Shown here: in pieces, positions 1 to 45,551 of the stretch | Position numbering within the stretch: the first letter of the stretch is position 1 | Layout of the letters: every line of letters starts with the position of its first letter | Virus record (IMG/VR): IMGVR_UViG_3300021181_000016 | Span: 1-45,551 of that record | Source of the DNA: a virus | DNA length: 45,551 nt | Reading direction: 5' to 3' (one strand) | Notes under the pieces: generated by a model | What the model was told of the DNA's origin: nothing | What the model saw: the letters and a program-made list of their open reading frames with translations, nothing else | Databases searched by the model: none | Translations under genes and position numbers: made by a program

Positions 1-145
1 AAGGCCTCCCACACTCTAACGGGGGTTTTCCCATGAATAAATTGGTGCTTTCAACCGCCTTGCTCGCCGCGATCGGCGCAACGCCGGCGCATGCGACGCT
101 GCAGATCGAGGTCTTCGACAACGGCTCGCTGATCGACAACATCAC
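1..145. repeat. left copy of terminal direct repeat
   Basis: Bases 1-145 recur at 45406-45551 with one difference: an extra C before the run of five Gs in the right copy. The repeat covers the hairpin arm, the ribosome-binding region and the first codons of the PEP-CTERM gene. Because it cuts a gene in two, it most likely marks circular closure of the assembly, or a circularly permuted or terminally redundant phage genome, rather than a functional end. The single-base mismatch suggests residual indel error or a population variant. Confidence 0.93.
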
Positions 146-680
146 TGGCGTCACCACGGGCGCGGCTTCGCTCACCGCCAGCGACGCCAATTTCGCCAAC
201 ATCACCATCGCCGCGCAGGGCTCTCCGATCTTGCCGAATGCGGACCTATCGAGCGTGACGCTCGACGCCAGCGCGGCGGCGGGCTTTACCGGCTCGCACA
301 CGCTGACCGTCGATGTGATCCAGAGCGCGATTTTCGGCACCGGAAACACGCTCTCGACGTTCACGGTCAACGGCTTGACCAACGATCCGGGTCCGACGAT
401 CGAATCGACGTTCGCCGGCGGCGGTCTGCTGGCTACGCACACCTTTCCGGCGGCGTTGCTGGACGGCTCGGCTGGGCCGTTCTCGGCGGCGACGGGCGCG
501 TTCACGACGGACGAGACGCAATTCGCCGTTGACTTCACTGCGCCGCGGCAGTCGTTTGGCGGCTCGATCCAGTTGACGACTGGCGTTCCGGAATCTTCGA
601 CTTGGGTGATGATGGGGCTAGGTTTCGCCGCGCTTGGCTTCGCCGGTTGGCGTCGTCGGGGCGCGCGTCTCGCGTTCTAG
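33..680 (+). CDS. secreted PEP-CTERM anchor protein
   Basis: A 215-residue exported protein. Residues 1-21 form a signal peptide (basic start, hydrophobic core, AHA cleavage site). The middle, about 22-180, is rich in Thr, Ser, Gly and Ala with alternating hydrophobics, as in secreted beta-sheet proteins. The C-terminus has the tripartite sorting signal of the PEP-CTERM family: VPES at 185-188, a hydrophobic helix at about 191-206 and an RRR cluster at 207-209. In hosts with an exosortase such proteins are cut near the PEP motif and retained in or released to the exopolysaccharide layer. The third motif residue is Ser rather than Pro, a known kind of variation. Five Gs lie eight bases before the ATG. 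It follows the Pro/Gly-rich gene across the circle junction. The role in infection is unknown; change of the host surface or blocking of superinfection is speculation. Confidence 0.85.
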   Translation: MNKLVLSTALLAAIGATPAHATLQIEVFDNGSLIDNITGVTTGAASLTASDANFANITIAAQGSPILPNADLSSVTLDASAAAGFTGSHTLTVDVIQSAIFGTGNTLSTFTVNGLTNDPGPTIESTFAGGGLLATHTFPAALLDGSAGPFSAATGAFTTDETQFAVDFTAPRQSFGGSIQLTTGVPESSTWVMMGLGFAALGFAGWRRRGARLAF

Positions 681-1070: not shown

Positions 1071-1433
1071 GTGGACATCCTCGATCGTCATGCCGACAAG
1101 TGGGAGCCTCTGACTGAGGTTGGATGCTACCTGTGGACGGGTGCCGTCGCGGGCGCTCCGGTTTTGCGTCCGCAAGTCACGATCGGGAGCATGGTCGATA
1201 GGACGCGCAGAACCGTGTATGTTTCACGGTTAGTTTGCGAAGAATTTCACGGACCGCCTCCGACGCCGCGGCATCAGGCTTTGCACAATACGCCGAATGG
1301 CTGCATTGGCGGCCTTTGTGTTGCGCCCCATCATTTGCGTTGGGGAACTAGTCGAGAAAATCACGCTGACGTTCATCCTCAAGCGCGCTCGGATCGCTCA
1401 AGGCGATCTTGGGTAAGTCGACGTCTGGTATAG
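1071..1433 (+). CDS. HNH endonuclease-like protein
   Basis: About 120 residues from a GTG start preceded by a purine-rich GGGGGATGGGG. The middle matches the HNH_3 pattern of phage free-standing HNH nucleases: CYLWTGA near the start, VSRLVCEEFHGPPP, then ALHNTPNGCIGG and APHHLRWGTSRENHADV, where the His and Asn residues form the metal site. Such enzymes nick or cut DNA, often near their own insertion site. The last 25 codons are Arg-rich and look like read-through of an eroded end. It overlaps the called portal start by 25 bases, directly beside an AT-richer 5' part of the portal gene, which suggests mobile arrival or co-conversion. Confidence 0.75.
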   Translation: MDILDRHADKWEPLTEVGCYLWTGAVAGAPVLRPQVTIGSMVDRTRRTVYVSRLVCEEFHGPPPTPRHQALHNTPNGCIGGLCVAPHHLRWGTSRENHADVHPQARSDRSRRSWVSRRLV

Positions 1434-3901
1434 ATATAACAAAAATGGAACGTATTTTCGCGTCTTTCAAGGATAGCTCAAGTCTAAACACCGGTTCATA
1501 CGACCCTGGTGATCCGGAGTCCTATGAGCAATTCTTGAACGCGATGATTAAAGATGCTCGTGACTATGAAGGAATGGTATTAGCAGCTAACAGGGACTAC
1601 GCGCAGAAGTATTATTACGGACTTTTACCTACACTGTACCCTGATGATAACCCATGGTCAGATACCACTATCGTTCAAGACCCAAACGCTACTTATGACC
1701 AATTCAATAAGGATCAGGAAGACGCAGCAAATCGATCATCGTTCGTTTCAACCGATGTTCGTGATGCAATTATGCTTATGTTGCCGTCTTTAATTAGATT
1801 ATTTGGTGCAAATGAAAGTCCAATCGAGCTTGTTCCAAGAAGCGCCGCTGAAAGCGACATGGCTCAACAGGCAACGCAATATGTAAACTATACATTTTGG
1901 AATGATAACCCTGGTTTTCTCATTTTGTACGGTGCCTTTAAAGACGCAATGACGGTAAAAACCGGTTTTGTTAAGTGGTGGACCGACGATCGCAAGGAGA
2001 TGCGTCGGAAGACCTTCATGGGCATCACAGCCCAGCAAATTCAACAGCTTCTGATCGAAGACCCAACCGCTAAGTTGATCGAGGTGGGCAATCCGACGCC
2101 AGGCGTCGCGGCTCCGCCGCCGCCAGCTGCGCCGCCGCCTCCACCAGGTCCGCCAGGAATGGCTCCAGGCGGCCCACAGATGGCTCAGGGCGGGCCTGGG
2201 CCAATTCCCGGTCCTCCACAGCCTCCTGGGGCTCCCCCGCCTCCAGGGGCCGTTTCTGGCCCGCCTGGAGGCCAGCCGCCCCTGCCGCCTGGCCTCGCCG
2301 GCGCGATCGCGCCGCCGGCCTTCGACCATGTGGTGATCGAATACCAGGTGGCGAAGCCGATTATCCGCATCACCGGCGTGCCTCCGGAGGAGATGCGGCT
2401 CGATCGTTATGCGCGAACTTTTCGGGAAAGCCGGATCGTCGGGCATGAACGCGTCGCGCCGATCGATGAGCTCACCGCGATGGGCTACCAACGCGAAATG
2501 CTTCTCGACTACGTGCAATCGCAGTCGATCGCGGAGTTCACGACCGAGCCGCAATTGCGCAATCCTGGCCGGATCATGTCGACCCGGGTTGGCGACGGGG
2601 TGATGTACGGCGAGTGGTACATCCGCGCCGATCACGACGGCGACGGCTTTCCGGAACTCCGCCACGTCATCACGATGGGCGAGAACGCCACGCTGATTTC
2701 GGACGAGCCGGCGAACCGGATCAAGTTCGCCCTGTTTTCCGTAGACCCGATTAGCCACACGATCGTCGGGGATTCCATCGCGGATCTGACGATGGACATT
2801 CAGCGGATCAAAACCAACCTCTCGCGCGCCATTCTCGACTCGGCCGCCGAGAGCATCAACCCGAAAACCGTCATCAACGAGCTCACGACCAACGTCGACG
2901 ACGCTTTGAACGACGACTTAGGCGCGGTCATTCGGACGCGTGGGGATCCCAACGCCGCGGTCGCTTTCAACAACATCCCGTTTCTTGGTCAGGCGGCGAT
3001 GCCAATCATCGAATACCTGAACGACGTGCTCCAGCGTCGTACTGGGTTGTCCGATGCGGCAAAGGGCCTCGACCCGAAAGCACTTCAATCGTCCACGATG
3101 GTCGGCGTTGAAGCGATAATCAATGGGCAGCAAGAGCGCACTGAGCTTGTCGCGCGCGTACTCGCTGAGACGGGTTTCAAGGATTTGTTCAGCGGCTTGT
3201 TTAACGAGGTCTGTGAGAATCCCTCGCAGCAACGGACTCTGAAGGTCAACGGCAACTGGGTAGATTACGACACCTCGACGTTCGACGCCTCGATGGGGGT
3301 GGAAGTCAACCCAACCCTCGGCAAAGGTTCTGACACCGTCAGACTGATGACATTGCAACAGATCAAGACAGATCAGCAAACGATCGTAGCGCAAATGGGC
3401 CTCAACAACCCTGTTTGTGGCCTACAAGAGATGATGAATACGCAAACTGACATGTTGGCAATCGCCAACATTAAAAATGTGAACAGATATTTCAAGATGC
3501 CCAATCCGGTGCAGCTGCAAGCGATGCTCAGCGCGCCGAAAGAGCCCGACGCGATGACCTTGGCGGCCCAAGCCCAGTACCAAAAGGTGAAAGCCGACGC
3601 CGCGGAAGCCTTGGGCAATCAAAACCTCAAGAAAGCGCAGCAAGACCAAGACAATGCGCTCGCACAAGCGCAATTGCGCGAAAAGACACTCTACGACCAG
3701 GCGAAGATTCAACTCGAGGCTGACGCGCTGCATGCTCAGCATGTCCAGGCGCTCGGCAAGATGGCGAGCGACATGTTCAAGACCGCGCACGACGGCGCGA
3801 TCGACGTGCATCAGACGCACGTTCAGGCGGCCAGTGACCAGGCGGTCGCGGACACCCAGGCCGAAGCGGCCGCACAGCAACCGCAGGGAGGCGGAGCGTG
3901 A
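1409..3901 (+). CDS. portal protein
   Basis: An 830-residue protein with the features of podovirus portal proteins, which form the dodecameric DNA gateway at one capsid vertex. Recognisable core stretches are YGEWYIRADHDGDGFPEL, then GDSIADLTMDIQRIKTN, the RRTGLSDAAKGLDP segment and a Gln/Ala-rich helical C-terminus (about 715-830). Residues about 230-300 are an unusual Pro/Gly-rich insertion. The TTG at 1409 has AAGG six bases upstream; the ATG at 1445 is an alternative start with poor ribosome binding. Codons up to about 1975 are clearly AT-richer (TTA, AGA, ATA) than the rest, pointing to recombination inside the gene. It overlaps the next gene by four bases. Confidence 0.85.
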   Translation: MGKSTSGIDITKMERIFASFKDSSSLNTGSYDPGDPESYEQFLNAMIKDARDYEGMVLAANRDYAQKYYYGLLPTLYPDDNPWSDTTIVQDPNATYDQFNKDQEDAANRSSFVSTDVRDAIMLMLPSLIRLFGANESPIELVPRSAAESDMAQQATQYVNYTFWNDNPGFLILYGAFKDAMTVKTGFVKWWTDDRKEMRRKTFMGITAQQIQQLLIEDPTAKLIEVGNPTPGVAAPPPPAAPPPPPGPPGMAPGGPQMAQGGPGPIPGPPQPPGAPPPPGAVSGPPGGQPPLPPGLAGAIAPPAFDHVVIEYQVAKPIIRITGVPPEEMRLDRYARTFRESRIVGHERVAPIDELTAMGYQREMLLDYVQSQSIAEFTTEPQLRNPGRIMSTRVGDGVMYGEWYIRADHDGDGFPELRHVITMGENATLISDEPANRIKFALFSVDPISHTIVGDSIADLTMDIQRIKTNLSRAILDSAAESINPKTVINELTTNVDDALNDDLGAVIRTRGDPNAAVAFNNIPFLGQAAMPIIEYLNDVLQRRTGLSDAAKGLDPKALQSSTMVGVEAIINGQQERTELVARVLAETGFKDLFSGLFNEVCENPSQQRTLKVNGNWVDYDTSTFDASMGVEVNPTLGKGSDTVRLMTLQQIKTDQQTIVAQMGLNNPVCGLQEMMNTQTDMLAIANIKNVNRYFKMPNPVQLQAMLSAPKEPDAMTLAAQAQYQKVKADAAEALGNQNLKKAQQDQDNALAQAQLREKTLYDQAKIQLEADALHAQHVQALGKMASDMFKTAHDGAIDVHQTHVQAASDQAVADTQAEAAAQQPQGGGA

Positions 3902-4131
3902 ACGACAAGCGGGATTTTACTTTTGGTGAGCGTGCAGTTGGAATTACGTTTAATCCGAGCGCGTCTGGCGAGGTTGACGTGCTTAAAACGCGTGCCGGGA
4001 ACTTTATCGACGCGTGCAATGATTTGCGCGAGGCGGCGACGAACCCCGAAGTCAAGCGCATGTACTCGATCGCGATCACCGAAGCGCAGACGGCGCAGAT
4101 GTGGGCGGTGAAGGCGGCGACGTGGCGATGA
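3898..4131 (+). CDS. Acb2/Tad1-hairpin-like small protein
   Basis: A 77-residue protein starting at GTGA over the portal stop. It begins FTFGERAVGITFNPS, has a helical middle (VDVLKTRAGNFIDACNDLR) and ends with an amphipathic helix and the signature ITEAQTAQMWAVKAATW. From memory of the family, small phage proteins with this ending are grouped with the Acb2/Tad1 helical-hairpin domain. Characterised members bind cyclic nucleotides and so blunt CBASS or Thoeris immunity. The fold assignment is by motif recall only; signal sequestration is inference. Its place between portal and scaffold would give late expression, so a structural or regulatory role remains possible. Confidence 0.55.
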   Translation: MNDKRDFTFGERAVGITFNPSASGEVDVLKTRAGNFIDACNDLREAATNPEVKRMYSIAITEAQTAQMWAVKAATWR

Positions 4132-4433
4132 CCGGCTTGCCGAACATCGATCCGACACAGACCGACACGCGGGCGAACGACACGCAAGCGAAGCGCGAGC
4201 TTTTCCTCGAGGCGAACGATCTCCTCAACGAAAAAGGCGTCTTCATGCTCGCGGTTCGAGCGCTTCGCATTCGTTGGTATGGCGAATGGCTGGACGCGAC
4301 CGAGCGCGACAAGGAACGCGATCTGAAGGCCAAGTTGAAGGTGCTCGACGCGGTGCCGGCGGAAATTAAACGCTTCGTGAGCGATTACAGCATGGCGTTG
4401 GATAGACAGGCGAAGAATGCCCGAAGGCCTTGA
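4128..4433 (+). CDS. hypothetical helical protein between portal and scaffold
   Basis: Not recognised. 101 residues from the ATG at 4128, which overlaps the preceding stop (ATGA). It is charged and predicted largely helical: RELFLEANDLLNEKGVFML, then many Glu, Asp, Lys and Arg residues (WLDATERDKERDLKAKLK). No cysteines, membrane segment or nucleotide motif. Position and composition suggest an accessory of head assembly, but this is inference. It overlaps the scaffold gene by 17 bases. Confidence 0.75.
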   Translation: MTGLPNIDPTQTDTRANDTQAKRELFLEANDLLNEKGVFMLAVRALRIRWYGEWLDATERDKERDLKAKLKVLDAVPAEIKRFVSDYSMALDRQAKNARRP

Positions 4434-5631
4434 TAGCGCCGCGCAAGCGTTTGAGCGCGCGATCGATCCGGCTCAGACGCAGAGCGAGGGAACGCCGCGC
4501 GCGCCCGCGCCGCGGGATACGAGCGGCCGTTTCGCCCAGGTCGCGGAGAAGCCCGAACCATTTCTCGAGATCCGGACGATCGAAGGCGATCCGGAGACGG
4601 GAGACACGAACGACGCGGGAGACGATCCTCGCCTCCGTGCTCGAGAGAGGGAGATAGCCGATGGTCGGTTTGACGAGAGGGCGCACCGCGAAAGTCAATC
4701 ACGCGCCCGACAAGCGCCCACCGAAACTGAAAGGCAGAGTGGCGAACGACGTAGCCCCGACGCCCCGGTCAGCGATGATGCCGCCGCCGACGATGGACAC
4801 TTGCGAGCCGATGATGAGTCGCAAGACGCCGAAGCCGACGCCGCCGGCGATGAAGAGAGTGAAGACGGCGATCTCGAAAACGCCCAGTTCGAAATCACGG
4901 TCGACGGCGAGCCTCAAACCGTATCGCTAGGCGAGCTCCGTGACGGCTACATTCGGACGGCGACGTTCCATTCGCGGCTGAACAAGGTCAACGAGCACAA
5001 GCAAGCGGTCGACCAGGAGAACGCGCGCGTCGCTCAGATGCGCGATATTTACATCCAAGGACTGACCAACCTCGATCAGGATCTCCAGGCGCTCGTGCCG
5101 CCTGAGCCAGATTGGGACAAGGAATACGAAAAGGATCCGCTTAGGGCGAGGCGTTGGCAGAAAGAACTTCAGGCGTACAACGCCAAGCTCAATCAGATCC
5201 GCGCCAACCGCGCCTGGGCGTTGCAGAATGCGCGCGAAGAGCACGATCGCGCGAGCGCTAAATACGCGATCGATCAGTTCACACAGTTCGTCCAAGATCA
5301 TTCGAAACTGATCAAGGATGAGCCATCACTGCAGCGAGTAATCGGCGGCATGCGCAAGACTGCGCTAGCCGAAGGTTTCACCGAGCCAGAGGTGGCGGGA
5401 GTCTACGACAAGAGGATGCTCAACGTGCTCCTCAAGGCGTGGCTCTATGACCAGGGGATGACGGTAAGACCCCAAGCGGTCCTCCCCGGTAAAGGCAAGT
5501 CATTGGTACCCGGTTCCGCTACGCCCCTTGGGAATGCTGGACGCCGGAACATCGATGAAGCCCAGCGGCAACTAGCCCGCACAGGAAAGATGGAAGACGC
5601 CGTAGGCTACTTCCAGAGGCTTCTCAGATGA
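4417..5631 (+). CDS. capsid scaffolding protein
   Basis: 404 residues, placed directly before the major capsid gene. The first third is disordered and highly acidic (Asp/Glu-rich about 50-150). Next comes a short beta segment FEITVDGEPQTVSLGEL and a hydrophilic coiled-coil core rich in Gln, Lys and Glu from about 180 to 300. A helical C-terminal region (about 300-404) would hold the coat-binding part. This arrangement is typical of internal scaffolds of P22-like and SU10-like phages, which guide shell assembly and leave the head before DNA entry. Catalytic protease residues are not evident. The name rests on position and composition. Confidence 0.75.
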   Translation: MPEGLDSAAQAFERAIDPAQTQSEGTPRAPAPRDTSGRFAQVAEKPEPFLEIRTIEGDPETGDTNDAGDDPRLRAREREIADGRFDERAHRESQSRARQAPTETERQSGERRSPDAPVSDDAAADDGHLRADDESQDAEADAAGDEESEDGDLENAQFEITVDGEPQTVSLGELRDGYIRTATFHSRLNKVNEHKQAVDQENARVAQMRDIYIQGLTNLDQDLQALVPPEPDWDKEYEKDPLRARRWQKELQAYNAKLNQIRANRAWALQNAREEHDRASAKYAIDQFTQFVQDHSKLIKDEPSLQRVIGGMRKTALAEGFTEPEVAGVYDKRMLNVLLKAWLYDQGMTVRPQAVLPGKGKSLVPGSATPLGNAGRRNIDEAQRQLARTGKMEDAVGYFQRLLR

Positions 5632-39853: not shown

Positions 39854-39883
39854 ACTATATGGGGGCTATCATGCGCTTATCAA
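39854..39883 (-). promoter_or_regulatory. minus-strand promoter overlapping operator-like palindrome
   Basis: TTGATA (39878-39883, minus) and TATAGT (39854-39859) are 18 bases apart. The -35 lies inside TGCGCTT-ATC-AAGTGCG (39872-39888), an almost perfect inverted repeat. The 18 bases at 39867-39884 are identical to 41890-41907, where another promoter has the same arrangement. A repressor bound here would block transcription of the genes from 39738 down. The site overlaps the stop codon of the gene at 39880-40533. Confidence 0.6.
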
Positions 39884-40533
39884 GTGCGCAAAGTGCGATG
39901 ATATTGATAATAATTGCTGTCATCGACGGCTTGGTCGTATTCCCGCGTGCTCATTTGCGCGTCGGTTGGAACGAAGCGAAGGCGGCAAAAATTGAAAGCT
40001 TCCTGGCTGGAGGCGAAACGGCGTTCGTCGTAAGCGGGATGGCCGCGCAGGGGTCCGGTTTCGCTCTCGCGCCAAGCCCAGCCAGGTTTCTCGCCCCGAT
40101 CGAATTCGATGGTGAAAGTTTGGCTCGGGCCGCCCAAGGGGTCTTTGAGCGTGTGAGCTCCGGCGAAACGGGAGGCGCGCGGATTGGCGCGGCCGACGTC
40201 GAGGGCGGCGAATTTTGAACGTTTGACCTGGTCGGCGGCGACGCGCAGGCGATCGCGAATCGCGGCGTTCACGTATTTGTGGATAAAGGCCTCGCGACCG
40301 AGCGAACGGTATTCGGCGGCCACTTTGGGGTAGCGCATTTGACCGGCGTGCCAGGTTCCGGCGGCGCGGAGGCTCGCCATCGTGGCGGGCCGCAACCCTG
40401 ACGCGCGGGATACAACTGAAGGTTTAACGCCCTCGCAGAGGGCGGCGTAAAAGGCGCACATTTCGTCGAAGGGGAGGCGCATTGCATGTCGATCTATTTG
40501 GTTTTCCACAATGTCGGCGAATGGGTTTTCCAT
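39880..40533 (-). CDS. putative HTH DNA-binding protein next to large inverted repeat
   Basis: 217 residues, ATG at 40533. Residues about 20-75 look like a helix-turn-helix region: LPFDEMCAFYAALCEGVKPS, VVSRASGLRPATMASLRAAG, similar to initiator or terminase-small-like DNA binders. The rest has basic helices (NAAIRDRLRVAADQVKRSK) and a C-terminal part with many aromatic residues. The start is 33 bases from the 47-bp inverted repeat, so it may bind that element. Function otherwise unknown. Confidence 0.6.
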   Translation of the reverse strand: MENPFADIVENQIDRHAMRLPFDEMCAFYAALCEGVKPSVVSRASGLRPATMASLRAAGTWHAGQMRYPKVAAEYRSLGREAFIHKYVNAAIRDRLRVAADQVKRSKFAALDVGRANPRASRFAGAHTLKDPLGGPSQTFTIEFDRGEKPGWAWRESETGPLRGHPAYDERRFASSQEAFNFCRLRFVPTDAQMSTREYDQAVDDSNYYQYHRTLRT

Positions 40534-40565
40534 TTTCAGTCCTCAGAACATATTAGAACGCTTGG

Positions 40566-40716
40566 GACTTTAGTTCGCTAATACGGTTTAGGTCTATAAC
40601 TATTGCGCGAGAGAAAAGAAAAAATCCGCTAGCATGGAAATCCATGTCAGTGAAAACGAGATCATGTTGTCTCGCGCAATAGTTTTAGGGGTAAATCGTA
40701 TTAGCGACTTAAAGTC
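40566..40716. repeat. 47-bp imperfect inverted repeat with 57-bp spacer
   Basis: Left arm 40566-40612, right arm 40670-40716, about 39 of 47 positions complementary. Perfect blocks include GCTAATACG and ACTATTGCGCGAGA. The spacer has an A-rich run (40612-40625) and a small palindrome CATGGAAATCCATG. It occupies the only gene-free stretch near 40.6 kb (40534-40826). Possible roles are a replication origin, a twin regulator-binding site or the footprint of two facing promoters. Confidence 0.75.
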
Positions 40717-40718
40717 TG

Positions 40719-40737
40719 AGGGCTTCTATAGAACCCT
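40719..40737. other. hairpin around TTCTATAGAA
   Basis: A 10-bp self-complementary TTCTATAGAA (40724-40733) is flanked by AGGG and CCCT with one bulged C, directly beside the large inverted repeat. Regulator binding or RNA structure is possible. Confidence 0.5.
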
Positions 40738-41878: not shown

Positions 41879-41906
41879 GATATAAGGCTTATCATGCGCT
41901 TATCAA
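41879..41906 (-). promoter_or_regulatory. minus-strand promoter with -35 inside a perfect palindrome
   Basis: TTGATA (41901-41906) and TATATC (41879-41884) on the minus strand, 16 bases apart. The -35 is the centre of TGCGCTT-ATC-AAGCGCA (41895-41911), a perfect 7-bp inverted repeat; TATCATGCGC occurs twice around it (41890-41899 and 41912-41921). Shares 18 identical bases with the promoter at 39854-39883. It would start the whole minus-strand block. Confidence 0.65.
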
Positions 41907-41969
41907 GCGCATATCATGCGCTATGTTAGCATGGCAGCTATGCCGGAGCTCGGGGCCAATTGTGGCGCG

Positions 41970-42537: not shown

Positions 42538-43052
42538 GCCTTCCGGCCTATCCCTGGGACGCCCGTCCGGACGCGATGCCTCTCACCGCGGACGAGGTGT
42601 GTGAAGCCCTCTACCAAGCGGAGGGCGACATCACCGCGGCCAGCCAGCGGCTGAAGGTTGGCTCGCTGATTTTGCGCAAGTTCATCGAGCGTTCCTCCCG
42701 CGCCAGAGCCGTGGTCAGAGAAATGGACATGCGGCTGGCGGACAAGGCGCGATCGAAGCTCGCCCAAGCTCTGGACGATCACGACAATCGGCGGGTGGAT
42801 TGGGCGATCCGGTACGTTCTGAACTCGAAGAACGCGCGTCCGTTGGGTTGGGCCAGCAGCGATCCGAGCGAGGACGCTCAGCGCAACGCGCTTGCGGGTC
42901 CTCTCGTCACCCTGAACCTTCCGCCGGCGCAATGGGCGGACGGCACGGCGATTGGGCCCAGGGAGCTTGCCAAGAACGTGATCGAGTTGCATCCCTCGTC
43001 CCAGCTGCCAACGATCCCGAAGGCAAGCGAGACGGACCCCGGTGACCGGTGA
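42534..43052 (+). CDS. terminase small subunit
   Basis: 172 residues. Residues about 15-50 have a helix-turn-helix typical of TerS (TADEVCEALYQAEGDITAA, SQRLKVGSLILRKFI), then a helical oligomerisation region (ADKARSKLAQALDDHDNRR, VDWAIRYVLNSKNARPLGWA). It would bind the packaging site and recruit TerL, which follows in an 11-base overlap. The C-terminus is Pro-rich and polar. Confidence 0.8.
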   Translation: MSLPAYPWDARPDAMPLTADEVCEALYQAEGDITAASQRLKVGSLILRKFIERSSRARAVVREMDMRLADKARSKLAQALDDHDNRRVDWAIRYVLNSKNARPLGWASSDPSEDAQRNALAGPLVTLNLPPAQWADGTAIGPRELAKNVIELHPSSQLPTIPKASETDPGDR

Positions 43053-44379
43053 CGACGGAGCTGACTTCGATCTGGTCGACGAGCCGGAGGCCAAGCTTGC
43101 GCCGGCGATCATCCCGTACATTCCTCGCCCGCATTTTCGTCCGCTGCATGCGTCGACCAAGCGCTGGATTTTCGCCGTCGCCCATCGCAGGGCTGGAAAA
43201 ACCGTCGCCCTGGTCAACCAGCTGATCAGAGCCGCTCTATCGAACCCGCGACGTCATCCGCCGCCCCGGTATGCCTATGTTGGGCCCTCGTTCGACCAGG
43301 TGAAGGATTTATGTTGGGCCTATTTGAAGCACTATGCTGGCGGTTACCCTGGGGTGCGCTTTCTCGAGGGCGAGCTGACGGTGATTTTCCCGCATGGGGC
43401 GACGATCCGGCTGTATGGCGGCGGGCAGGCTTATGAACGGATCCGGGGGATTTATCTCGATGGCGCGGTGTTGGACGAATATCCCTTGCTCAATCCGCGC
43501 GCTTGGACCTCTGTGGTTCGCCCCACTTTGGCGGATTACCGGGGATTCGCGGTCATTTCCGGCACCAGCAACGGCGACGACCATTTTCACGCCGTCAAGC
43601 TCAAGGCCGAAGACGACGAGCAATGGGATGTATTCGACATCAAGATTACTGACACCGGGGAAGACGCGCTGAGTTTTGAAGAGCAAAGGGAACTAACGCG
43701 CGACATGCCGGCGGACGAATACGCTAGAGAAATGCTCAATGCTTTCGATGCGCCGGTTGAGGGCGCGTATTATACGGAGAGTCTGAACGCCATCCAATCC
43801 CAGCATCGCATCGGTTCAGTTCCTGTCAATCTTTCCGGCACTTTGATCACCGGTTGGGACATCGGCATTCACGATTTTACTTGCATTTGGGTGTTTCAGT
43901 TGGTTGGCAAGGCGATTCATTTCGTCGATTACATTGAGGATCGGGGGCACAAGGCCGAGCATTATCTGAATATTCTGGATCTAAAGGCGAAAGCTTGGGG
44001 GGTGCCGTTCAAGGCGCATATCCTGCCGCATGACGTCGAGGCGCGGGAGTGGATTTCGGGCGAGAGCCGGCGTTTCGGGCTGATGGACGCGACGCCGACG
44101 CCGATTCTGACCGCGGAACGCGTTTCCGACGCCGATGGGGTGAGCGCGGTGCGGGGAATTCTGGGGATAAGCTGGTTTGACGAGCAACGCTGCCGGCGGG
44201 GGCTGGCGCGGCTTCGAGGCTACAAGAAATCGAAGTTTGGCACGCCGGTGCACGACGATCACAGCCATGGCGCGGATGCGCTGAAGACGGTGGCGGTGGG
44301 GTTGCCGCATGTGACGGCGCTGAGTTCGAGCCTGAGTTTCGGCCGGCGGCTGAGAAGGCGGATTCGGGGGCTTGTTTAG
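43042..44379 (+). CDS. terminase large subunit
   Basis: 445 residues from a GTG. Walker A is HRRAGKT (48-54), Walker B GAVLDEYP (141-148 with Asp145, Glu146), with SGTSNGDDHF as the coupling motif. The nuclease half has ITGWDIGIHD near 270 and HDDHSHGADALK near 410, supplying acidic metal ligands. It is the ATP-driven packaging motor that also cuts the concatemer. An adjacent non-coding gap of 29 bases separates it from the next gene. Confidence 0.92.
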   Translation: MTGDDGADFDLVDEPEAKLAPAIIPYIPRPHFRPLHASTKRWIFAVAHRRAGKTVALVNQLIRAALSNPRRHPPPRYAYVGPSFDQVKDLCWAYLKHYAGGYPGVRFLEGELTVIFPHGATIRLYGGGQAYERIRGIYLDGAVLDEYPLLNPRAWTSVVRPTLADYRGFAVISGTSNGDDHFHAVKLKAEDDEQWDVFDIKITDTGEDALSFEEQRELTRDMPADEYAREMLNAFDAPVEGAYYTESLNAIQSQHRIGSVPVNLSGTLITGWDIGIHDFTCIWVFQLVGKAIHFVDYIEDRGHKAEHYLNILDLKAKAWGVPFKAHILPHDVEAREWISGESRRFGLMDATPTPILTAERVSDADGVSAVRGILGISWFDEQRCRRGLARLRGYKKSKFGTPVHDDHSHGADALKTVAVGLPHVTALSSSLSFGRRLRRRIRGLV

Positions 44380-44633: not shown

Positions 44634-45326
44634 ATGGGTCAAGGATTTTACGCCTACATTCAGCCGATCGACGACGCCGCGCATCCCGATCAGGGGCTTC
44701 CTGGCGGCGGGCGTCCGGGTCATCGTCCTGGTCGTCCCGGCCGGCCGATCGATCCTGGTTTTGGCTGGGGCGGCGGCGAGCGTCCCGGTCATGGGCTTCC
44801 GCGGCCGCCGCACACTTGGCCGCGCCCGCCTGGCGGCGGCCTTCCGGTCGATCCCGAATGGGGGATTCCGGAGGGCGGGCACTTGCATCCGGATCATGGT
44901 CTGCCGATCCATCCGATCGATCCGGAGCATCCCGATCAAGGCTTGCCGGAAGTTCCCGGCGTCGAGCCGCTGCCGCCCGATCCGCCCCCGGGCACGGTGT
45001 GGCCGCCTTTGCCGCCCGACGTTCCCGCCGGCCGCGCGCTCGCTTTGGTGGCGATCGAGGGCGTCGGTTATCGCTACGTGGTGATCGAGATTGGCGAGCG
45101 GCCGGTCGATCCGGATTACGGCGTCGAGGAGGGAACCCCGGAGCATCCGGACGTGCAGCCGCCGCGCCCTGGCGTTCCGCCGCGGCCCGGTCAGGGGCTT
45201 CCGGGTCAGCGTCCGCCGGTCGCCGGTCAGCCGCTGCCGCCGCAGCGTCCCGGTCAACCGCCGCAGCCTGGCCAGGGCTTGCCGCAACCGCCGACCGCCC
45301 AGCCCAAGCCCGGGCAGCGGCGGTAA
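44634..45326 (+). CDS. Pro/Gly repeat protein
   Basis: 230 residues with GGAGG before the ATG. Built from imperfect repeats such as HPDQGLP, HPDHGLP and RPGQGLP, with many RPG and PPQ units. One ordered beta segment at about 134-153 (ALALVAIEGVGYRYVVIEIG) breaks the repeats. Extended Pro/Gly-rich proteins near the terminase are known in podovirus-like genomes, without a proven role. The PEP-CTERM gene follows after about 110 bases. Confidence 0.7.
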   Translation: MGQGFYAYIQPIDDAAHPDQGLPGGGRPGHRPGRPGRPIDPGFGWGGGERPGHGLPRPPHTWPRPPGGGLPVDPEWGIPEGGHLHPDHGLPIHPIDPEHPDQGLPEVPGVEPLPPDPPPGTVWPPLPPDVPAGRALALVAIEGVGYRYVVIEIGERPVDPDYGVEEGTPEHPDVQPPRPGVPPRPGQGLPGQRPPVAGQPLPPQRPGQPPQPGQGLPQPPTAQPKPGQRR

Positions 45327-45415: not shown

Positions 45416-45551
45416 ACACTCTAACCGGGGGTTTTCCCATGAATAAATTGGTGCTTTCAACCGCCTTGCTCGCCGCGATCGGCGCAACGCCGGCGCATGC
45501 GACGCTGCAGATCGAGGTCTTCGACAACGGCTCGCTGATCGACAACATCAC
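45406..45551. repeat. right copy of terminal direct repeat
   Basis: 146 bases equal to bases 1-145 with one extra C at about 45426. See the left copy for interpretation. Confidence 0.93.
45439..45551 (+). CDS. 5' part of PEP-CTERM protein, second copy cut by window end
   Basis: The first 37 codons of the gene at 33-680, identical in this stretch and cut off by the end of the sequence. In the circular genome it is the same gene, now seen with its true upstream region: the Pro/Gly repeat gene and a 7-bp hairpin. This shows that the PEP-CTERM gene belongs to the plus-strand late block. Confidence 0.85.
   Translation, partial: MNKLVLSTALLAAIGATPAHATLQIEVFDNGSLIDNI

Follow-up and report, generated by a model that had tools for sequence, protein, structure and literature searches.

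The sorting of proteins by exosortases is, to our knowledge, known only as a bacterial (and archaeosortase) route for building the cell surface. Exosortase substrates are exported by the Sec pathway and retained in the inner membrane by a C-terminal segment; the exosortase then cuts them, and they reach the cell surface or the exopolysaccharide (EPS) (PMC12188702). PEP-CTERM proteins stabilize EPS at the surface (PMC12188702), and a PEP-CTERM protein can turn soluble EPS into bound EPS and drives floc formation (PMC9850573). The models describing the bacterial system are TIGR02595, PF07589, and NF035944 (PEPxxWA-CTERM) for the substrates, PF09721 for the EpsH/Xrt exosortases, and NF035943 for XrtV. 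The lipoprotein Llp of phage T5 is a superinfection-exclusion protein of the cell surface: a small, exported protein of the envelope that this virulent phage produces while infecting its host. The literature searched contained no paper on PEP-CTERM proteins encoded by phages.

The DNA analyzed here, referred to as the window, is a stretch of 45,551 bp that constitutes the single IMG/VR virus record IMGVR_UViG_3300021181_000016. The window belongs to a podovirus-like phage with genes encoding the large terminase subunit (TerL), portal, scaffold, and major head protein, together with tail and lysis genes. One of its proteins resembles the substrates of the bacterial PEP-CTERM/exosortase system in having a signal peptide, PE motif, membrane helix, basic tail, and variable cargo. 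The resemblance extends to candidate hosts, which have an exosortase that is encoded beside an EPS gene in Roseiarcus fermentans. Unlike the genes of bacterial PEP-CTERM proteins, however, the gene is carried by phages, and its cargo is phage-wide and nearly invariant, whereas those of bacteria are genome-specific. By analogy, the protein is comparable to Llp of T5, because it is a small, predicted exported envelope protein of an apparently virulent phage. By contrast, its signal peptide does not contain a lipobox cysteine, and its predicted sorting is by an exosortase.

The protein from the window matched 67 loci in a scan of viral contigs. The core family considered here is a set of 59 loci, including the window, in which the whole cargo domain and the tail are readable. 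The gene in the window has the following organization.

33–680, + strand: gene of the phage PEP-CTERM protein, 215 residues; an open reading frame with a TIGR02595 match above the cut-off and relatives in the 67 viral loci
33–95, + strand: signal peptide, residues 1–21, read from the sequence, with a predicted cut after AHA (AxA site); the N-terminus is hydrophobic in 59 of 59 members
99–584, + strand: middle (cargo) domain, 162 residues, predicted to be β-rich; equal in length in all 59 core-family loci, with 94 of 162 positions invariant
585–605, + strand: sorting motif VPESSTW; the TIGR02595 match covers residues 185–209
606–677, + strand: membrane helix followed by the basic tail (WRRRGAR), read from the sequence; AF2 predicts a helix at residues 188–207, with low overall confidence

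The signal peptide, VPES motif, membrane helix, and RRR tail that the earlier note had reported are all present in the open reading frame. Its product starts with MNKLVLSTALLAAIGATPAHA, followed by the predicted cleavage and TLQIEVFDNG..., and ends with ...LTTGVPESSTWVMMGLGFAALGFAGWRRRGARLAF (the C-terminal part is also given as TGVPESSTWVMMGLGFAALGFAGWRRRGARLAF). Its predicted export is well supported by this anatomy, and the architecture suggests that the cargo is located at the cell surface. The match to TIGR02595 exceeds the curated cut-off of 16, with 20.7 bits for the protein and 24.6 bits in the genome scan. The proposal that a phage encodes a PEP-CTERM protein therefore holds, although Pfam PF07589 is narrowly missed (19.0 bits versus a cut-off of 20.7, a difference of 1.7 bits). 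The best full-length match is that of residues 44–208 to NF038126 (FxDxF PEP-CTERM; E 2.6e-7); however, membership of this family is rejected by the curated rule, because the score of 31 bits is below the cut-off of 50. The TIGR02595 cut-off is passed by 43 of 48 phage records, with one gene each except for two in contig L072, but by none of the 14 control genomes, which indicates that the PEP-CTERM match is more than chance. The signal peptides and tails of the 59 core members vary in sequence and length but retain their character. All of the members have a hydrophobic N-terminus and an alanine before the cargo, and 58 have a membrane helix above the chosen score. The tail is net basic in every one of them, and all contain [VI]PExxTW, the pattern that was itself used for delimiting them. 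The third position of the motif is occupied by proline in 45 members, alanine in five, threonine in five, serine in three, and leucine in one. The serine in the window, which had been singled out as notable, is thus an ordinary variant.

The cargo of the core family has no insertions or deletions in any of the 59 loci, which comprise 50 different sequences at the nucleotide level and 47 at the protein level. In comparisons across phage types, dS of the cargo has a median of 0.94 and dN/dS a median of 0.10; the cargo is therefore far diverged at synonymous sites and under strong purifying selection. It is very probable that these are real PEP-CTERM proteins of phages that are maintained by selection. 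The core cargo has no match in 50,697 records of isolated phages or in 72,556 plasmids, and the PEP-CTERM protein of the window has no match in PHROGs. The AF2 model of the full-length protein has a pLDDT of 49 and was set aside. The cargo alone is predicted with medium confidence (pLDDT 69, pTM 0.70) to form a β fold with 12 strands. A fold search with this model gave no secure structural match, and the weak ones, similar to jelly rolls or carbohydrate-binding modules, have TM scores mostly below 0.45. Because these matches are weak, no ligand or receptor is claimed. A scan for sigma-70 promoters and terminators around the gene found nothing above chance.

The PEP-CTERM gene is carried with the late genes of the window genome, as had been proposed. 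The gene order at the site is TerL, a small gene, a Pro/Gly-rich gene, PEP-CTERM, HNH, and portal.

43042–44379, + strand: terminase large subunit, left flank of the cargo site (phrog_2, E 8.7e-22)
44634–45326, + strand: Pro/Gly-rich protein, 230 residues, without a known family; directly upstream of the PEP-CTERM gene in the circular genome
45406–45551, + strand: right end repeat of 1–145 with one 1-nt indel, containing the first 37 codons of the PEP-CTERM gene again
1–145, + strand: left end repeat, which repeats at the other contig end
1071–1433, + strand: HNH endonuclease (phrog_1872, E 6.4e-14)
1409–3901, + strand: portal protein, right flank of the cargo site (phrog_1216, E 5e-108)

The end repeat marks a circle or terminal redundancy. 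The 5′ end of the gene recurs, over approximately 110 bases, at positions 45439–45551, because the ends of the contig overlap. The indel falls within a run of C/G shortly before the ATG (AACGGGGG versus AACCGGGGG). The longer form is present in contigs L003 and L065, and an assembly or strain variant may therefore be present at the window's left end. The earlier note had allowed that the gene might be a chimeric-assembly join at the circle junction. Contig L003, which is a separate IMG/VR record, covers the region from TerL to the head genes, including the junction and the complete gene, with 99.65% identity over 11,365 bp. Since this independent contig spans the junction, the PEP-CTERM gene is not an assembly join, and the chimera is ruled out.

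The Pro/Gly-rich protein contains repeated PDQGLP and a conserved core, PPGTVWPPLPP...KALALVAIEGVGYRYVVIEI, and it accompanies the PEP-CTERM gene in several phage types. This core recurs in 28 of 64 core-family loci and in 11 of 52 loci of the second cargo family described below, mostly at most 0.5 kb from the PEP-CTERM gene where measured. The protein may be a partner or may merely share the moron region. Between the portal and scaffold genes of the window, positions 3898–4131 (+ strand) encode a 77-residue protein that matches the Acb2/Tad1 hairpin domain PF24729 (37.8 bits, cut-off 27) and is likely an anti-CBASS/anti-Thoeris cyclic-nucleotide sponge; its relatives occur in several other PEP-CTERM phages. 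An intergenic inverted repeat at 40554–40728, upstream of the late operon, has 62-nt arms that are 79% complementary and a 51-nt spacer, and is a possible origin or regulatory site. Repeated TATCATGCGCTTATCAAGCGC-like units at 39857–39887 and 41880–41921 are perhaps operator sites.

Grouping by flanking genes places the core-family loci in approximately ten gene contexts, and their TerL genes form three or more separate BLAST clusters. Type A is the podovirus group of the window. Type B is distantly related to type A and has the PEP-CTERM gene at another place, with an SNF2 helicase on one side and convergent tail genes on the other. Type C has another TerL and another head protein, type D genomes are 71–78 kb and have RecT, and type E encodes a primase related to that of Rhizobium phages RHph_TM (29%). 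Type F combines a low GC content (39–41%) with a DnaE-like polymerase, type G has a GC content of 49% and the third TerL cluster, and types H, I, and J are further contexts. The GC content of the contigs ranges from 39 to 65%, whereas that of the PEP-CTERM gene itself is 55–68%, and this narrower range fits movement of the gene between phages. The cargo tree mixes the phage types, with 19 label changes relative to a minimum of nine, and its deep branches are poorly supported. The position between TerL and portal in type A would suit a virion component, that is, a protein built into the particle or tail in which the C-terminal helix has no sorting role. However, a signal peptide is present in all members checked, and elsewhere the gene is located away from the structural genes (between the helicase and tail genes in type B, beside early genes in others), which makes such a component highly improbable. 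In 46 records, many of them fragments, the search for a tyrosine integrase was negative. Lysogenic conversion is therefore unlikely, and the PEP-CTERM phages are apparently virulent.

PEP-CTERM genes were also found at the same genomic position in sister phages: among the nearest sisters of the window, every contig that reaches the TerL–portal site has one there. The middle domain at this site is not always that of the core family. In the type A sisters L073, L074, L075, L078, L105, and L137 it belongs to a second family, which has no detectable similarity to the core cargo outside the tail, and L076 has a third kind of middle domain. The second family occurs on 55 viral contigs with a GC content of 0.40–0.67, and 51 of the 52 members with the frame read have a PEP-CTERM tail (44 with PExxTW by pattern, seven slightly different by eye). 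It also takes the position of the core family in similar phages of types B (L112, L129), D (L126, L146), E (L113), and F (L107, L143). Exchange of the cargo with the tag left in place would be difficult to account for if the tag had no function. The main point, which the earlier note missed, is that the gene represents a broad phage family with exchangeable middle domains rather than a single odd gene.

Contig L072 carries a tandem pair of unlike PEP-CTERM genes (3748–5262) in its TerL–portal interval; the first kind of cargo is found on nine viral contigs and the second on three. The second-family cargos of L132, L133, and L134 have another form of tail (VPEPASLGILGLGMLGLGMV..RRR), which suggests phages of hosts with a different exosortase. 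In L059 (1339–1995), the core cargo is kept and the PEP tail is replaced by DVVPGPVVGAGLPGVIVGCGFLVLLAMTRRKARG (beginning VPGPVVGAGLPG), which has no NCBIfam match. This replacement, seen in one phage, counts against the exosortase mechanism proposed below; it may represent a natural swap of the sorting tag and could indicate that another sorting enzyme is used.

A genome scan with the second family identified only R. fermentans, metagenome-assembled genomes (MAGs) of Roseiarcus and Rhodoblastus, and a palsa Hyphomicrobiales MAG, essentially by the similarity of the tail. Members of the Hyphomicrobiales (Ochrobactrum, Sinorhizobium, Rhizobium) are the hosts of the isolated phages that come closest to types A, B, and E. 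The four candidate host genomes have one exosortase each, and several of these exosortase-bearing genomes contain many PEP-CTERM genes. Exosortases are uncommon in these bacteria, with 7 of 149 in the family of the candidate hosts and 16 of 298 in the order. The exosortase of R. fermentans is closest to XrtV (303 bits versus a cut-off of 313), and its gene adjoins that of an exopolysaccharide glycosylphosphotransferase. Because tail-similar genomes have an exosortase and the nearest phages infect Hyphomicrobiales, Roseiarcus and Rhodoblastus are plausible hosts, as candidates only.

The cargo was not found in an exact-pattern scan of 84,980 cellular species with two peptide patterns only, nor by profile in 398 genomes of the order and ten exosortase-bearing genomes, a weak negative because no positive control matched. 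These limited searches disfavor the capture of the cargo from a host. The earlier suggestion of a captured host gene thus fits the signal peptide and tail, which are of the host type, but not the middle domain, for which no cellular relative was found. That the gene is nothing but a captured host gene or assembly contamination with no function for the phage, as its signal and tail resembling host PEP-CTERM proteins might suggest, is very doubtful: its 59 loci in many phage backbones are under purifying selection, the cargo is not found in the cellular genomes searched, and an independent contig spans the junction. The combination of one exosortase with many substrates in the candidate hosts, together with the retention of the tag while cargos are exchanged, is also what would be expected of a decoy that floods the sorting enzyme and strips host PEP-CTERM proteins from the surface. 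However, a decoy would not need a conserved cargo, yet the cargo is the most conserved part of the protein, whereas the helix and tail of the tag vary. A decoy function is therefore less likely, and we regard it as improbable.

The preferred mechanism is that the cargo protein would be expressed during infection by an apparently virulent phage, exported by Sec, and freed of its signal peptide. It would stay in the inner membrane, anchored by the C-terminal PEP-CTERM segment, until the host exosortase cleaves at this segment and passes the cargo on to the cell surface or the EPS layer, where the cargo would remodel the outside of the infected cell. The cargo may occupy or mask a surface target and so block adsorption by other phages, and likewise the adsorption of progeny virions to surviving cells or debris. 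Different cargo domains at one genomic site would then be alternative specificities. The protein from the window displays all the sequence hallmarks of an exosortase substrate, and the processing of phage PEP-CTERM proteins by a host exosortase is judged likely. A conserved cargo carried by many phages that probably share hosts, together with unrelated cargos at the same site, points to an activity at the surface of the infected cell. The reading as a whole, in which a secreted cargo uses the host exosortase and remodels the surface of the infected cell, most likely excluding other phages, has in our estimate an even chance of being correct.

Exclusion of competing phages, a possibility already raised in the earlier note, is probably the most natural benefit for a virulent phage, and the remodeling of EPS is probably its main rival. 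So conserved a cargo is unlike the exclusion factor expected from an arms race, which counts against exclusion, and we place this function at or slightly below an even chance. Alternatively, the cargo could bind or reorganize EPS for the spread of the phage, so that cells aggregate or virions are freed or retained without adsorption being blocked. Bacterial PEP-CTERM proteins provide precedents, as they turn soluble EPS into bound EPS and drive flocs (PMC9850573) and stabilize surface EPS (PMC12188702). Moreover, the predicted cargo fold is similar to a β-sandwich, with carbohydrate-binding modules among the weak matches (TM 0.3–0.4). However, these matches are too weak for naming a ligand, and several unrelated cargos at one site suit a switch of specificity at least equally. 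EPS remodeling is thus a possible but rather unlikely function. Whichever benefit applies, we lean towards the view that virulent phages of exosortase-bearing soil alphaproteobacteria share mobile, cassette-like surface proteins, in which a constant tag of the host type is joined to unrelated, exchangeable, phage-specific cargos at a fixed site, and that they would use the host exosortase to reprogram the cell surface.

More than one hundred phage contigs carry exosortase substrates in which the cargo is swapped at a fixed site and the tag is kept, which makes it very likely that phages exploit this route. No earlier phage system relying on sorting by exosortases came to light, and this one would then be the first. 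The phage PEP-CTERM proteins are a natural set of substrates under selection that can be used for studying the specificity of exosortases. They also offer a directly testable mechanism of superinfection control or surface remodeling in abundant, little-studied soil bacteria. The findings suggest that soil phages have a widespread and so far undescribed way of remodeling the infected cell.
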